A stretch of 64,000 bases of DNA from Sternotherus odoratus (taxonomy: Eukaryota; Chordata; Testudines; Kinosternidae), in the NCBI GenBank assembly GCA_032164245.1, contig JAVMKO010000001.1, positions 251,233,644 through 251,297,643 on the forward strand, written 5' to 3'. Positions 1,676 through 42,632 of this stretch are shown piece after piece. Every line of letters starts with the position of its first letter. The first letter of the stretch is position 1. Both the position numbers and the translations under genes were made by a program. A model generated the notes under the pieces. It was not told the origin of the DNA, did no database searches, and saw nothing but the letters and a program-made list of their open reading frames with translations.

Positions 1676-4600
1676 GTAATTAAAAGCGGAATAGTGTTCA
1701 GGCTCCTCTTGTTAAAACGTAATTATTTTCAGTAAAATATTTTGTGGCTCTGTCAGTGATCACCTTAGTTATACTGAAGATTTATGTGACTAGAATTCCT
1801 TCTTCCACATAGCAGTGTTCCTTTGTAATTTGAGTACAAAATTCCTTGTGTGCCCTCTGGAAAGTTGGAGAGAAGAGGAAAAAATGTCTATGAACTGTCT
1901 AATCATATTTTGAATATTGAATTTCTCCCACCTTCTAAGATAAAGCTCAAAAAGAGTATGTGTGTTAGACAGACAAACTGTTGCATGGTATATGCTTGTT
2001 TTTTCAATATTTATTTTGAAGATTTTATTCGTAGTCTAGTGAAGATTCTATAGCTACCTTAGGCTCAAACTCTATGAACTCCTACAGTGCAGGGGCCCAC
2101 CTGCATGGAACTCATTGCAGGACTGAGATGTCAATTTGTTTCTATGTAATATAATATGACATGTGTTATTGCAATGGTTGTTTTGTTACTACATCGGGAT
2201 TATTAGTTTTCTTCATGTAAACAATGCTGAATGGTGTTTGTTAAAATCATATTTTACTAAATCAGCATTGTTTATACCCTCTCTTCAGAAACAAAGCCCA
2301 TTCAGCCATTCACAAATATAAAATACCTATTGGAGAAAGCTAGTTGTAGTTAAATTCTGAACAGAAAAACAACAACATCTGACAGCTTCCTAATCTTCAC
2401 GTCAATCTCCACTCTTTCTGGTGTATTTCAAAATGATATTCTGTATGGAAATCACTACTTTCACGAGAATGTTAGTAGATAAAATGTTCAGCAGAAACTT
2501 CCTGGCAGATTTGCTTTTGACATCTGTGCTGTTTGCTTCCTCAGTGCTACGAAGAGTCAGTAGATAGAATGATCCAATATTTACCTGTCAAATAATGTCA
2601 TTGTTAGGAAGATGAGCCACTCTGTTGCTGAACAGTTCTTGTTGTAGCATTACTGTTTGCAAGAAATTCCGTAGTTGAAAGTGTGTCTTCAAATCTAGGA
2701 ATTTTTATTGAGAGAGAATTTCTATATATTAAGAAATTCAACTGTTTTGCCAGGTTTAAATCTGTTGAGGTGATTTGGGAAACCTCTCTGTGTACAATGT
2801 ATAATTTCTGGTTAATTTTATGAGATTTTCTACACATTGCAGCTCTCAATGATACAGTCTACCATGGGCTGTCAGGGTCCATGACATTTCTCTCACTCAC
2901 ACAAGCACACCGGTTTGGAAGAAATTACAAAACAAATGAAATAAATCATTAACTTCAACAACTGAACTCTGGCTGAACAATGGCTAAGTTAGGGATGGTG
3001 CTTGGCAGATCCCAAAATATGAGCTGTGTGACCTAGTGGTTGGAGCTAGCAGCAGAGTCAGGGTTGTGGTTGCACCAGAGGTCAGAAGCAGAGTCAGAGT
3101 CTGCAACTGGGTCAGGGCAAGGAAGCAGGCAACAGGAACAAGGCATGGTAGATAGGTAGGAACCAGGTAAGGAAGCAGGGACCTGGTCTCAGAAGTGTGG
3201 GTATCAACAGGTCTAGTGACTAGTTGCTCAGAGAAGGAATGGGACAGGAAGTCTTGTACCAGTGGTGCCCAGTCTGCTGTCAGCTATTAGTCATCTGGCC
3301 ATGCTGGGTCCATGGGTGTAATTTCTGTGATGAGTATTAGCAGCAGGACAGTTGTCCACCCTTGTAGCTCAATGGCACAGAAGAGAAGGCAGCTGCTCAG
3401 CAGGCCTGGCTTTGAGACCTGTGGCATCTGACTGCATCTGAGCTGCGAGAACTGATTCTGCCTAGGTTGTCTGGAGGGAAGAGGGTTTGAAAAGTGGGAA
3501 AACCCCTCAACGGGAAACCAAAGAAACCAGGCGGTAATAGCTTTAAAAACTGAGAGGCATTCAGACACAAGAAGCTTGGGCAGGAGATGGGAACAAATAA
3601 AACTTGCTTTATGTAGCAAACGGGACCTTTGACTGTGGGATCAGCCAAGGTCAAAGGAGGCTGGCTGGAGAAAAGAGAGGGAGACGAGACCAGAAAGATT
3701 CCTTGTTCCAGAGGCGAAACCATCTGCAGGAGAGCAGAGAGAGAGGAAGGATCCCAAACACCATAAACAAACACTGAGCCAAATCCTAAAGAATGCTCGA
3801 GAGGTGAGGCAGCTGAGGCAGGGATGGCATGCAGGTGGTGTTTTGTCTTGTCTATTATATAATATATAAAATACAAAATATGTGATGTACTGTGAACACG
3901 TTGCACACAGGCTTGCGGGGCTTGAACGTGCTTCCCTGGCTGCAAGCGTGGAAAACTGTCTGTGGTCAGTCTGTAGTGCTGTCTGTAGTAGAGTGACTGG
4001 TTTGGAAACTTTTTCAAAGCCTGTGCATTGTGTGCTTCAACTGTTGTGTACCTAGAGAGGTGAATGTGGGAAACCTAGTTTCCAGACTCTAAGAGAGGCA
4101 GTGCTTATGGTATTGGAGAACTTAGCACGAAACATGGGACATAGGCAGTTGAACTTCCAGGAGAGTTGGATGATCTGTGCATCCAGAACGTGGCCAGTGA
4201 CCCAAAGGCAGTGCCTGGACTCTGCTTGTACTCAGAAAGCTTAAAAGCACATGGGCGCAAAACAGTAGCTTAGTGAGTGTCCAGCAAGCAGAATTATACC
4301 AGGGCTGCCACACCTTTTTAATGCAATAAAACTGTCTCCAAATGTGTAGTTAAAAGTAATATAAATAGCTGGTATCAGTGTTCCCTCTACTTTTTGACAG
4401 GCCATGTGTGCAAAAAATTGCTTCTGTGCAGATTTTTGTATGTGCAGTGTTTCGCCGGCAATTGCTAGCCTGCTGGGCAGCGGACGACCTTAGAAGGGGG
4501 CATTGCACAACTTTAAATGAGCATGTTCCCAACGTTAACTGGGACGACTTTAAACGAGGAGTTACTGTTCTGTATTACTAATAAGTTGCTAATAATCAAA

Positions 4601-22621: not shown

Positions 22622-23482
22622 ACTCTACTGGGTGATTCGCGACTGATGGGTAGCTGTCTGGCGTTGCAAGCTTCCAGTGGGCTATCGCCACTCGCTTCTG
22701 AACTGTGAAGGCTGCTCTTGTTTTGGTATTCTTGCCCAGGAAGGCCAGGGAAAGCAAGTCACAAAGTTCCATGAATGTGCCCTTATGATTGCAAAAGTTT
22801 CTGAGCCACTGGGAGTCATCCCAGACCCACAGCACTATGCGATCCCACCAGTCAGTGCTTGTTTCCCTGGCCCAGGATCAGCATTCCATAGCATGAACCT
22901 GCCCCATTGCCACCAAATTTGCCAGATTGTCGGACCCCCTACTTTCAAAAACATCAGTGTCCCTGTCCGTGTGCACGTCCAGGTCCATCTCCTCATCACT
23001 GTCATCAGTTTCCGGAAAATGCAGTTGTCTCCAGATCGCCTTCCTCTGCAGACGATGCAGCATAAAGTCTACAACAATGCACAAGGTCTTCACAAGGGCC
23101 AGTACTGTAGCGGTGGCCTCAGCAGGCTAAATGCTTGCACTGTTATGATGTCAGTGCAGTGCGGAGAAAGGGCGCGAAATAATGAGATGCCTACCCACAG
23201 TGCATGGCTCAAAATGGCGTCAGCGGCGTGAAAAAAGGGTGCGAAATAATGAAATGCCTACCCACAGTGCAGCACTCGAAATGGTGCCTGCTGGGGACTC
23301 CGGGAACTGTGGGATAGCTACCCACAGTGCACCACTCGCTATGTTGAGGCTTGCTACAGTTGTGTGGACAGACGCTGCCGACTTGCTGTCCTTTTGGGGA
23401 TGCACAGAATCGACTCTATACAGTCTGCTTACAAAAATCGACTGCAAGGAAATCGACCTAATTTTGTAGTGAAGACATACCC
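22622..23482 (-). pseudogene. Harbinger 5'-end fragment with transposase N-terminus
   Basis: The right end reads, in reverse, GGGTATGTCTTCACTACAAA, the same terminus as the element at 35439. The minus strand encodes WDDSQWLRNF, KGTFMELCDLLS, KRVAIAHWKLATPDSY and the LHRLQRK / NLANLVAMGQ segment of the Harbinger transposase, interrupted by stops and frameshifts (frames 22617-22835 and 22878-23093). The catalytic half and the other terminus are missing. Confidence 0.85.
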
Positions 23483-35438: not shown

Positions 35439-35455
35439 GGGTATGTCTTCACTAC
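35439..35455. repeat. Harbinger left terminal inverted repeat
   Basis: GGGTATGTCTTCACTAC; the right partner is at 39954-39970. Same terminus as the fragment ending at 23482. Confidence 0.9.
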
Positions 35456-35797
35456 AGCAGTAGTTCGATTTCCTTTATTTCGATGTTGTGAACGCGACGG
35501 TATAAAGTCGATTTTGTGTGTCTTCACTAGGCACAGCTACGCACAGCACGTCGACAGTGTCTGTCCGCAAAACTTTTGCAAGCGTCGACATGACGAGCGT
35601 TGCACTGTGGGTACCTATCCCACAGTTCCCTGATCCCCCAGCAGGCACCATTTCGAGTGCTGCACTATGGGTAGGCATTTCCAAATTTCGCGCCCTTTTT
35701 CCGCGCCGCCCACCCCCATTCCGAGCGGTGCACTGTAGGTAGGCATCCCATAATTCGCGCCCTTTCTCCGCCGAACTAACGCCATAGCATTGCAAGC

Positions 35798-37174
35798 ATG
35801 GAGCCCGCTGACACCACGGCTGCAGTAATGGCTGTTGTGAGGACCTCGATCTCGGTTGCTGAGTTCCTGCTGCACCGTCTGCAGAGGAGGAATGCGATCC
35901 GGGGAGAACTGCGCTTTCCGGAACCCGACGACAGTGAGGAGGAGATGGACAAGCACAGCGGGGACGACAGGGACACTGACGTGCACAGCGGGGACGACAG
36001 GGACACTGACGTGCACAGCGGGGACGACAGGGACACTGCCGTTTTTGCAAGTAGGGCGACTGACAATCTGTCAAGAATGGTGGCAATGGGGCAGGCTCAT
36101 GCCATCGAACGCCGATTCTGGGCCAGGGAAACAAGCACGGACTGGTGGGACCGCATAGTGCTGCGGGTCTGGGATGACTCCCAGTGGCTCAGAAACTTCC
36201 GCATGCGAAAGGGCACCTTCATGGAACTTTGTGACTTGCTGTCCCCGGCCCTCCAGCGCAGGAATACCAAAATGAGAGCGGCCCTTACAGTGGAGAAGCG
36301 AGTGGCGATAGCCCTCTGGAAGCTTGCAACGCCAGACAGCTACCGGTCAGTGGCGAATCAGTTTGGGGTGGGTAGGTCTACAGTGGGCTTTGCTGTGATG
36401 CAAGTAAGCAGGGCAATCGTCGAGCGGCTGCTACACCGGGTTATAAACCTCGGAAACCTGCAAACCACAATAGATGGCTTTGCCGCCATGGGATTCCCTA
36501 ACTGTGGTGGGGCTATAGATGGGACTCATATCCCTATCCTGGCACCGGACCACGAGGCCGCCGAGTACAGAAACCGGAAGGGATATTACTCAATGGTCAT
36601 GCAAGCAGTGGTTGACCACAAGGGACGTTTCACCGACCTGTACGTGGGGTGGCCGGGAAAGCTTCATGACGCTCGAGTGTTCAGGAACTCTAGGGTTTTT
36701 AGGCAGCTGCAGCAAGGCACTTTCTTCCCCGACCAGAAAATTTCCGTGGGGGGGGTCGAAATGCCGATCGTGATCATTGGGGACCCAGCCTACCCCCTAA
36801 TGCCCTGGCTTATGAAGCCCTACACAGGAGCCCTGGACAGGGGTCAGGAGCTGTTCAACTACAGGCTGAGCAAGTGCAGAATGGCCGTGGAGTGTGCATT
36901 TGGCCGCTTGAAAGGGAGATGGCGTTCCTTACTGATACGCTCAGACATCCGCGAGAGAAATATCCCCATTGTTATAGCTGCTTGCTCTGTGCTCCACAAT
37001 ATCTGTGAGAGCAAGGGGGAAACGTTTATGGCGGGCTGGGAGGCAGAGGCAAATTTACTTTCTGCTACTTATGAGCAGCCACACAGCAGGGAAAGTAAAA
37101 GAGCCCACCGTGAGGCCCTGCGCCTCAGGGACGCCTTGAAAGACAGTTTTATGAGTGCCCGAGATGGCGTTTGA
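35798..37174 (+). CDS. Harbinger DDE transposase (HARBI1-like), intact
   Basis: A 458-residue uninterrupted frame from ATG 35798 to TGA. N-terminus: charged region with three copies of a 10-residue DVHSGDDRDT-type repeat (about 51-80). Middle: WDDSQWLRNFRMRKGTFMEL, a helix-turn-helix-like VANQFGVGRSTV (about 186-197). Catalytic DDE_4 fold: D241 in GGAIDGTHI, D291 in GKLHDARVF, a conserved IIGDPAYPLMPW loop (about 326-337) and E365 in AVECAFGRLKGRW; then CSVLHNICE (about 396-404). Transposases of this family cut and paste the element by a DDE reaction and are known to need a MYB-like partner for nuclear entry and DNA binding. All catalytic residues are present, so activity is possible. Domesticated HARBI1 is the nearest host relative, but the surrounding termini show this is a transposon gene. 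Confidence 0.95.
   Translation: MEPADTTAAVMAVVRTSISVAEFLLHRLQRRNAIRGELRFPEPDDSEEEMDKHSGDDRDTDVHSGDDRDTDVHSGDDRDTAVFASRATDNLSRMVAMGQAHAIERRFWARETSTDWWDRIVLRVWDDSQWLRNFRMRKGTFMELCDLLSPALQRRNTKMRAALTVEKRVAIALWKLATPDSYRSVANQFGVGRSTVGFAVMQVSRAIVERLLHRVINLGNLQTTIDGFAAMGFPNCGGAIDGTHIPILAPDHEAAEYRNRKGYYSMVMQAVVDHKGRFTDLYVGWPGKLHDARVFRNSRVFRQLQQGTFFPDQKISVGGVEMPIVIIGDPAYPLMPWLMKPYTGALDRGQELFNYRLSKCRMAVECAFGRLKGRWRSLLIRSDIRERNIPIVIAACSVLHNICESKGETFMAGWEAEANLLSATYEQPHSRESKRAHREALRLRDALKDSFMSARDGV
35948..36040 (+). repeat. 30-bp in-frame triplication within the transposase
   Basis: CACAGCGGGGACGACAGGGA plus CACTGACGTG repeats three times (the third has GCC for GAC), adding ten residues per copy without breaking the frame. 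The fragment at 22878-23093 shows only one such acidic unit. Confidence 0.9.
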
Positions 37175-37275
37175 GAATCTGCTCCCTTGCTGTGCTCTAA
37201 GCCTGCTGCCCTTGTACCCTCTTTCCCTCCCCCCTCCCCATGCTTTCCCTCCTCCCTCCCCATGCTTGCAGAGGA

Positions 37276-37281
37276 AATAAA
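37276..37281 (+). terminator. Transposase poly(A) signal AATAAA
   Basis: About 100 bp after the transposase stop, in GGAAATAAAATC. Confidence 0.7.
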
Positions 37282-37307
37282 ATCACTGTTGGAAAAATCA
37301 TGGTTCC

Positions 37308-37313
37308 TTTATT
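37308..37313 (-). terminator. MYB-like gene poly(A) signal AATAAA (reverse)
   Basis: TTTATT on the + strand, 27 bp past the transposase signal and facing it; the two genes converge tail to tail. Confidence 0.55.
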
Positions 37314-38559
37314 GGTTCATCGGAAATACAAATGCAGGGGATCACTGTCCTGGTATCCTGGAGGGAAACCGGCAGTCGCAGTGGGGGAGGAGCGGGCAAA
37401 GGAGGGGGGGGAAGGGGGGAGAGGAGGGGTGGGCAAGACACAGCAGCTTTTACAAGTTTTCTGAGAAAGTCAGCCTGCTGCTGCTGCTGCTTCTGCTGGC
37501 TTGTGGGGTGGAGTGGAGCGGCCCACGGGCCTTGCCCCCCCGTGTTCTCACCCCGCGTCTGGGTGGGGAATCTATGGGAGTTGGGGAGGGGGGGAGGTGG
37601 TTACACAGGGGCTGCAGAGGTGGTCTTTGGGCATGCTGCAGCTCCACCAGAGATCGCAGCATGTCGCTCTGGTCCTCCATTATGCGGAGGAAAGCATCCA
37701 TGCGTCTTTCCTCACGTTCTACTCTCCTTTCTGCAGCGGCTTCCCTCCTTTGCTGCAGCGGCTTCCCTCTTTTCTGCAGCGGCTCTCCTTTCCTCTCTCT
37801 CTCGATTCCTTTCCTCTCTGTCTCGTTCCCTTGCCTGTATCATTTTTTCCCTCCAGTCCGTCTGGCGGGCTGCCTCAGCGCGCGAGTTCTCCAGGAGTTC
37901 AGTGAACATCTCATCGCGCGTTCGCGTTTTCTTTTTACGCTTTCTTTTCTGCGGTGCAGGGCGGGAGTTCAACTGTTGTTGTTCATCTGTGGGCAAGTGT
38001 GTGGGAAAAAAAAGGTTGAAAGTTATGAGACAGATACATTCAAGGTTAGGAGGCACTCGGACGGTACACAATGGGAGTAGTATGCTGTTTGCAACCTCAG
38101 TATTCAGAGGCCTGATATGATTTCTGTACAAGGTCATGTTCTACACCTAAAAGGAGAGGAGAGCTCACAGAAAAGTCAGAGCATCTCAGACACATATGCG
38201 TGCCTCAGCCCAAGACGGCTTCTGAAATCACCGTGCAGCCGGCCATGGTAAGTTAAAAGTGGCGCCTGCATACTGTAGAGCAACCCCGCCCCCTTCCCCC
38301 CACCGCGTGGCTGGCTCCCACTGAAACCGCAAACTGCAAAGCAAATGCCTAAGGGCTTAGGTCTTTTTGGGGCTCTTCAGACCGCGTGCAGACGGCTCAG
38401 ATTCCCTGCCAGCTAACGCTACGGGCTGGGGGGGGGGCGGGCGGCGGTCAGCGTTCGTGGGGGGGGGGCGGGTTCGGTTCGTCGGTCCTCAGCAGAAAAG
38501 AGTACTTTGCAGCTGGGACTCTTTATCTCCCGACTAATTGCAGTCCGTATCTCAAACAG

Positions 38560-38856
38560 GCAACCCTGAATGACATCACTTTGCTGAGAATTTCTCGGAG
38601 AGATAGGGAGCGCATGCTCCTTGAGTCCATGCAAAGTCCTGGTCCATACGCCGCAATGCTAGCCTGCTCAATGATACCAGAAAACCTACTACTTTCGTGG
38701 CGTGGGTTGGTGTCCTATCACGGGGGACCAGATAAGGCAGCTCTCCCCAGAAATCTGCTGCGCTGGATTCATCGCTACCTCCTGGATAGCTTCCTTGAAA
38801 TGTCCGCGGAGGACTTATGGTCAATCCCGGAGTATATTGACAAACTCTTTGAGTAG
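38560..38856 (+). CDS. Third Harbinger frame, BEN-domain-like, nested in MYB intron
   Basis: 98 codons from a CTCAAACAG acceptor-like site to TAG. The open frame extends upstream to an ATG at 38386, but that part is GC-rich low-complexity, so I take 38560 as the start of a conserved exon (the true start is unknown). Visible blocks: LNDITLLRIS, RDRERMLLESMQSPGPYAAM, a SMIPENLLLSWRG / VSYH segment, then predicted helices LLRWIHRYLLDSF and LWSIPEYIDKLF. The pattern of helix, G-x-VSYH, L-P, long helix, W, final helix resembles a BEN domain (DNA/protein-binding), judged by eye only. A decayed Harbinger at 42396-42632 encodes about one-third identical residues in the same place. AATAAA follows at 38937. 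It lies antisense within the MYB intron. Function unknown. Confidence 0.65.
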   Translation, partial: ATLNDITLLRISRRDRERMLLESMQSPGPYAAMLACSMIPENLLLSWRGLVSYHGGPDKAALPRNLLRWIHRYLLDSFLEMSAEDLWSIPEYIDKLFE

Positions 38857-38936
38857 AAATTGACCAGCAATGAAAGCACGCTAAGTCCTTAGGGCAAGTT
38901 ACTTAGGGCAAGCATTAATGCCTTAGGGCAAGCATT

Positions 38937-38942
38937 AATAAA
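38937..38942 (+). terminator. Poly(A) signal for the third Harbinger frame
   Basis: AATAAA 81 bp after the TAG stop and before the opposing MYB exon begins (38997). It supports a separate plus-strand transcript. Confidence 0.6.
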
Positions 38943-39973
38943 TACTTCCTTTACAAAATCACGCGTCATGTAATCCCTTAAAAAAGAAACACTTACCCCC
39001 CTGGGAGGCTTGGGAGGGTACTGGCTCCAGGGTGACAAACAGCTCCTGGCTCTCTGGGTACAAGGGTTCTCCGCTGGGCTCCTGCTGCTCCGTGAGATTT
39101 TCTTCTTCATGCTCGTCCTCCTCGGAATCAGTCTCCTCCCTGACGATGATCCCATCGGTGGAGTCCACGCACACCGGCGCGATGGTGGTGGGGGCGCCCC
39201 CCATTATGGCATTTAGTTCATTGTAGAACCTGCATGTCCGTGGCGCGCCCCCTGATCGTCCGTTTGCCTCCTTGGCTTTCTGGAAAGATTGCCGCAGCTC
39301 CTTAATTTTCACGCGGCACTGTGTGGTGTCCCTGTTGTGGCCCCTTTCCAGCATGGCCTTGGAGACTCTTCCGTAGGTGTTGGCATTCCGTTTGTTGTTG
39401 CGGAGTTCCAACATCACGGATTCCTCTCCCCAGATAGCGATGAGATCCAGCACCTCACGAGTGGACCATGCTGGAGCTCTTCTCCTCTGGCTGGTCTCCA
39501 GGGTAGATGAGCTCAGCATGGATTCCTGTGATGCTGAGCTCTGCATGGCGGCTAGTGCTGCTGATTGCTCTGAATGGCGACTGATCAGTTCAGGTGAGCT
39601 GGCCACGCTGACCAAACAGGAAATGGCATTCAAATGTTCCCGGGTCTTATCTACCTGGCCAGAGCAGCGAGTTCAGAGTGCAGTGCAGAGCGGTCACAGT
39701 GGAGCAGTAGTGAGGCAGTCCAGAGCGGTCAGAATGGAGCATTGTGGGACAGCCTCTGGAGGCTATTAATGTCGGGTTCCGTCTTCACTAGCCCACGGTC
39801 GAGCTTGGAACGTCGAGATTAGCCTTATGCCACTGGTTAGGCTGGAGTGCCAAGATCGATCTTTAAGGCCCTTTACATCGACGTTAAGGGCATGTATGTG
39901 AAGACAGGTACACGTTTACTTCGACCTAACGTCATTAAGGTCGAATTAAAGTGGTAGTGAAGACATGCCCTTT

Positions 39974-42155: not shown

Positions 42156-42395
42156 TCACAAGATAAATGGAAACTTGGTACATTGAACTCACTCCTCTTG
42201 ATCTACACTAGTTACAAATGTTATATTCTCACTTCTTCTTGGGATTGATGGAGCATGGGGGCACTCCCAGCCATGGTGAGTATGGGCCGGAGAGAATGCG
42301 GGGTGAGTTGAGACAATAAGTTGGTGAATAGTTCACTGGCATTAGTATATGGGGATAGGACAATTGAAACTGAATACTGGCACCCTTTTCCACAG

Positions 42396-42632
42396 GCCGT
42401 GGTTATCTTAGCAGATATCTCATTCCTGGGAGTAACAGGGGCTGAAAGGGAGAAGATCCTGCATGTGTCTGGCTGCAGATCAGGTCCGTATGCGGGTAGC
42501 CTGTGTGCTGCAATGGTGCCTGATGAAGTAATTGCTGAGTGGCATGGGAAAGTGTCCTACCATGAAGAAAGAAATAAGCCCCCCCTTCCCCCCCAAAGCG
42601 TTTGGCAGAGAATTGCAGGTTACATCCAGTAA
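42396..42632 (+). pseudogene. BEN-like third frame, older copy
   Basis: After a CTTTTCCACAG acceptor-like site the frame gives LADISFLGVTGAEREKILHV, SGPYAGSLCAAMVPDEVIAE, WHGKVSYHEE and RIAGYIQ, then TAA where the 38560 copy continues with DSF. It is collinear with that copy with about one-third identity over roughly 75 residues; past the stop, SFLK still matches SFLE. The frame is open although neighbouring genes are scrambled. Confidence 0.65.

Follow-up and report, generated by a model that had tools for sequence, protein, structure and literature searches.

Do Harbinger-type transposons always carry only two genes? Members of the PIF/Harbinger superfamily (PHIS) are typically described with two (PMC9179366, PMC4482050, PMC8437027). 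We analysed a window of 64,000 nucleotides from the turtle Sternotherus odoratus (contig JAVMKO010000001.1, positions 251,233,644 to 251,297,643). It holds a PIF/Harbinger-type element with a transposase gene and a MYB-like gene, and an initial annotation had proposed a further BEN-like gene within it. We consider it probable that this is a real third gene of two exons, lying antisense in the likely intron of the MYB-like gene and encoding a small BEN-fold accessory protein that binds DNA or chromatin.

Likely structure of the third gene

Exon 2 occupies 38560..38856 on the plus strand, with 98 codons (38560-38853) and a TAG stop (38854-38856). It is directly preceded by an acceptor-like sequence (...ctcaaacag|G) and followed by a likely polyadenylation signal, AATAAA, at 38937..38942 (+). 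All of these are present as first annotated, but a likely upstream exon 1 with the start codon had been overlooked. Exon 2 itself offers no usable start: its codon 3 is CTG in the window, and relatives show ATG, GTG, TTG or other codons there. Translation likely begins at the ATG formed by the final three bases of exon 1 (38245..38247, +; context gccggccATG|G). The donor at 38247, gccggccATG|GTAAGT, is the strongest on the plus strand upstream of exon 2 (score 6.5). The likely intron spans 38248..38559 (+; 312 nt, compared with 225-1172 nt in relatives), and the exon 1 ATG and exon 2 join in phase 0 to give a 99-residue protein starting MATLNDITLLRI.

This structure was compared among 28 different loci that do not belong to the young family of near-identical copies described below: 12 with 1.5 kb flanks and 16 full elements (four further full elements duplicate loci of the first set), with the donor and ATG sought within 1,300 nt. 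Of the 28, 22 retain an intact ATG|GTAAG; one further relative has CTG, one a broken donor and four have neither. Counting a seven-copy cluster on C6 (98.75-98.92 Mb) once, it is kept in 16 of 22. AG stands immediately 5' of exon 2 in 25 of the 28. A start inside exon 2, at codon 3 (NTG), was rejected given the variable codon there and the ATG ending exon 1 in 23 of 28 relatives.

A TATA-like motif is located at 38147..38155 (+), about 95 nt before the ATG, and many relatives have CCTTAAATT or similar. The block 70-140 nt upstream of the ATG, with this motif as its core, has a mean identity of 78% versus 61-67% for its neighbours (18 loci, picked for possession of exon 1). To judge from the sequence, it may be the third gene's own promoter.

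The MYB-like gene is on the minus strand, with a likely coding exon 1 at 38997..39546 (start codon 39544-39546) and a likely coding exon 2 at 37712..37986. Joining them (38997/37986) yields an uninterrupted protein that reaches its stop after 274 residues, and thus the intron is likely 37987..38996 (-; donor 38997|GTAAGT, acceptor from the sequence and the spliced reading). As the initial annotation had it, the frame at 38560-38856 lies entirely within this likely intron on the opposite strand.

At another locus (L052:2597-4220) we identified a 1,624-bp element with terminal inverted repeats (TIRs) and matching TTA flanks that contains the BEN gene. It has ATG|GTAAG at 2852 and an open exon 2 at 3313-3606, and no transposase or MYB match. 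This is a BEN-only derivative.

The BEN exon could instead belong to the transposase gene, as an alternative 3'-terminal exon. The product, a fusion of the transposase N-terminus with the BEN domain, might be a repressor in the manner of P-element splice variants. Five protein records (P0004, P0008, P0009, P0012 and P0013) indeed join apparent transposase residues to the BEN exon in frame (by eye; for P0009 also by Pfam), and P0020 is likewise joined and additionally holds a MYB domain. However, the junctions fall at differing places between the models (by eye), which suggests opportunistic joining, and the sole phase-0 donor-like site (score at least 3) in the window transposase frame scores 3.7 versus 6.5 for ATG|GTAAGT. 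Nor does the start-codon exon 1, kept in most relatives, require a transposase, and a BEN-only element exists. We consider a fusion improbable as the main product of the exon.

Copies and selection on the frame

Of 6,166 first-look candidates, the 150 young-family copies with the best scores all show 99-100% identity and have no stop, which indicates abundance and youth rather than constraint. Among the 28 diverged copies, 20 are open, although 16 of those 20 came from rows preselected as stop-free. Copies were picked for their resemblance to a homologous protein, and all 16 full elements came from stop-free rows, which biases the sample towards well-kept ones. Eight copies contain stops, seven of them in one tandem cluster.

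That cluster consists of seven similar BEN-exon copies on C6 (L009, L010, L012-L015 and L017), with an eighth among the matches listed, in a 170-kb stretch. Its copies have one in-frame TAG in common, and it is likely a local duplication of a single inactivated copy.

Comparing exon 2 of the window with the 28 copies, the ratio of nonsynonymous to synonymous divergence (dN/dS, Nei-Gojobori) is 0.08-0.24 in 27, with one comparison saturated; bootstrap upper limits are all at most 0.43 (tandem cluster not collapsed). The initial annotation had suggested this comparison, and the values are far below 1. They may nevertheless be too low, because silent sites of the young-family exon are unusually diverged. 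Between the young family and other subfamilies (38248-38856), the median dS of the BEN exon is 1.70, versus 0.39 for the transposase and 0.57 for MYB exon 1 of the same elements, whereas dN of the BEN exon is similar to that of the other two. The high silent divergence may reflect a mosaic origin or fast silent change. On the question of a swapped BEN cassette, the L043 group is the nearest for both the transposase and the BEN frame among the loci compared.

Given the diverged silent sites, omega estimated on a tree is the safer measure. The tree was built from 63 frames, of which 62 belong to the main family (tandem cluster collapsed) and one is the older copy in the window. Omega is 0.29 on the 61 internal branches (1 stop) versus 0.53 on the 63 terminal branches (16 stops), and 0.30 versus 0.53 when one locus (L043/L074) is entered twice. 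Such a pattern is expected of a gene that is needed in an active element and decays after insertion. With a dN/dS that stays well under 1 on the internal branches, the frame bears the mark of purifying selection.

The older copy is a collinear frame at 42396..42632 (+; acceptor ccacag|GCC), already pointed out in the initial annotation, and is exon 2 of the third gene in a more diverged relative. It matches the window frame at 39% over 61 residues (BLASTP, E 4e-15, a single pairwise comparison), with a dN/dS of 0.38 and a bootstrap upper limit of 0.76 (Nei-Gojobori). Here too an ATG is found at the likely exon end (42273..42275, +; ccATG|GTGAGT), and ATG|GTGAG occurs in two of nine further loci of this older family. 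The gene structure conserved across subfamilies, together with dN/dS, supports the earlier proposal of a third translated gene.

Selection on the RNA or DNA itself, for example for an antisense RNA or for splicing of the MYB intron, might also keep an untranslated frame open. In favour of this, the frame is antisense to the intron that contains it, and the exon as a whole and the 87 nt 3' of its stop show equal similarity between loci (0.81 each). However, divergence is greatest at codon position 3 (identities of.84/.88/.71 at positions 1/2/3; 120 pairs), dN/dS values are much lower than 1, and structure prediction confidently gives the protein the fold of a known domain. We regard this explanation as very improbable.

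Predicted fold and probable binding

The third gene is predicted to encode a 99-residue, lone-domain protein. A confident structure model has the five-helix BEN fold, and the closest fold match is the BEN4 domain of BEND3 (7w27, 7v9i) at 21-24% identity. The BEN-like character first proposed is therefore upheld by the predicted fold, but less so by sequence. Pfam scans of the protein did not match PF10523 (Pfam BEN) above its cut-off, so we file it as a BEN-fold protein and not as a member of Pfam BEN. Searches of Protein Data Bank (PDB) sequences and Pfam scans gave no BEN match; weak chance matches to RlmN_N and others were discarded. DUF4806, a BEN subtype (PMC11075544), is absent from the Pfam scan output, the filters of which discard weak matches. 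Profile comparison to host BEND3 gave forward E values of 0.017-0.044 and an hhalign P of 7e-4. Weighing against membership, the reverse search from BEND3 gave an E of 3.6 at rank 19 of 366. Sequence profiles thus lend weak, one-way support.

In published BEN structures, bases are read by helix 5, and the loop linking helix 3 to helix 4 touches the backbone or minor groove (PMC11472053). That loop (VSYHGGxNKxALPRN) is highly conserved across the third-gene family. Residue 98 is E in the window and Q in most aligned relatives, where BANP has Arg316 (judged by the ends of the aligned ranges). Because the loop is conserved while the protein ends approximately at the base-reading arginine site, binding to DNA or chromatin is likely but not certain.

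A genuine BEN-fold protein could also act through contact with the transposase, the MYB protein or host factors instead of with DNA. The isoelectric point of 5.6 is consistent with this, as is helix 5, which ends near the base-reading arginine site of DNA-binding BEN proteins and has E or Q at residue 98 (PMC11472053). The conserved loop would suit protein contact as well, and BEND3 BD1 was solved in complex with PICH (title of 5jno). On the other hand, the closest fold, BEND3 BEN4, was solved with DNA (going by the structure titles), the helix 3-4 loop of NACC1 also contacts DNA (PMC11472053), and two of the five older-family members that reach the arginine site have RR there (P0023 and P0024; not P0010, P0014 or P0016). 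We consider action by protein contact rather unlikely.

Distribution and joins to host genes

Protein searches identified 26 distinct homologous proteins, so the family extends beyond the two copies in the window. A lack of such homologues, or a dN/dS near 1, would have counted against the initial annotation, and neither was observed. The 19 that are named to species are from Malaclemys, Chrysemys, Emys, Pangshura, Chelonia, Lepidochelys and Gopherus, all of which are turtles. These searches detect only relatives that share short exact words, and their yield is no evidence of absence from other vertebrates.

Seven records of turtle gene models (P0005, P0006, P0007, P0017, P0018, P0019 and P0021) carry the BEN exon in frame, at or close to the C-terminus, in six host genes: RAB3C, CDK6, CENPQ, ST13 (two species), TEDC1 and TMEM59. 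In a Chelonia merlin record it is at the N-terminus. Such gene models are usually drawn from RNA reads, which may hold for these records.

Proposed role and related systems

The third gene would be transcribed to an mRNA and its protein would act in the nucleus. The element would then produce its own single-domain BEN protein, analogous to host 'BEN-solo' repressors such as Insensitive and BEND6. On chromatin of the element or the host, this protein may tune expression or mobilisation of the element. With the gene antisense in the MYB intron, its transcription would also damp MYB production.

We tentatively suggest a broader scenario. Turtle Harbinger elements may have taken up a BEN gene as a portable unit, with promoter, an exon ending in ATG, intron, second exon and poly-A signal, that serves them in chromatin control or against silencing. 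Its acceptor would add BEN domains to host proteins (CDK6, ST13, CENPQ, RAB3C, TEDC1, TMEM59) as alternative exons. If true, this would be a running source of new chromatin-binding fusions in host proteins.

PIF/Harbinger elements, including NuwaI and NuwaII, share with the window element a DDE transposase, a Myb/SANT partner, GGG termini, a length of about 4.5 kb and, probably, a 3-bp target duplication (PMC4482050). The window element differs in its additional BEN-fold gene nested in the MYB intron. ISL2EU elements, also of the PHIS superfamily, have another kind of accessory, a YqaJ exonuclease, as their second gene (PMC9179366). That accessory replaces the MYB gene, whereas the BEN gene comes in addition to it. 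Unlike BEND3 BEN4, the domain here stands alone on a transposon, appears to lack the C-terminal basic residues of helix 5 and has no Pfam BEN match. The BEN domains of bracoviruses and poxviruses are likewise carried by mobile or viral genomes, and were found among fold matches in BFVD, but they belong to virus genomes and mostly to longer proteins, in contrast to the single 99-residue domain of this DNA transposon.

Among the papers listed in our literature searches (in one case 20 of 1,729), none shows a Harbinger element with a BEN gene in its title or the opening of its abstract; the searches covered few subscription papers and had Repbase outside their scope. Within that literature, a three-gene Harbinger-type element appears new against the usual two-gene description. 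A selected third gene would mean that transposition or its control has a component outside current two-gene models. Its predicted fold is that of chromatin regulators from hosts and viruses. The gene offers a means of testing how a transposon confronts host silencing, and may be one way in which BEN domains enter host proteins.

The element and its relatives

The whole transposon spans 35439..39970 (4,532 bp), with TIRs at 35439-35468 and 39941-39970 and TTT/TTT flanks. The transposase gene is an open frame at 35801..37174 (+). Its match to PF13359 (E 3.3e-35; 121.5 bits against a cut-off of 24.8) identifies the DDE_Tnp_4 transposase characteristic of PIF/Harbinger (PHIS), and the match of the MYB-like gene to PF13837 (71.2 bits, E 9.9e-20, cut-off 27) the Myb/SANT partner. 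TIRs are present, and flanks of 3 bp are identical in 6 of 21 elements inspected. The matching flanks are mixed: TTT in the window, TAA in L035, TTA in L038 and L052, CTG in L046 and ATA in L051. They fall between the TWA of Harbinger and the CWG of NuwaI (PMC4482050).

The terminal repeat also occurs in a third, perfect copy at 23466-23482 (-), with no partner close by at up to 3 mismatches. It is perhaps another derivative of the transposon family.
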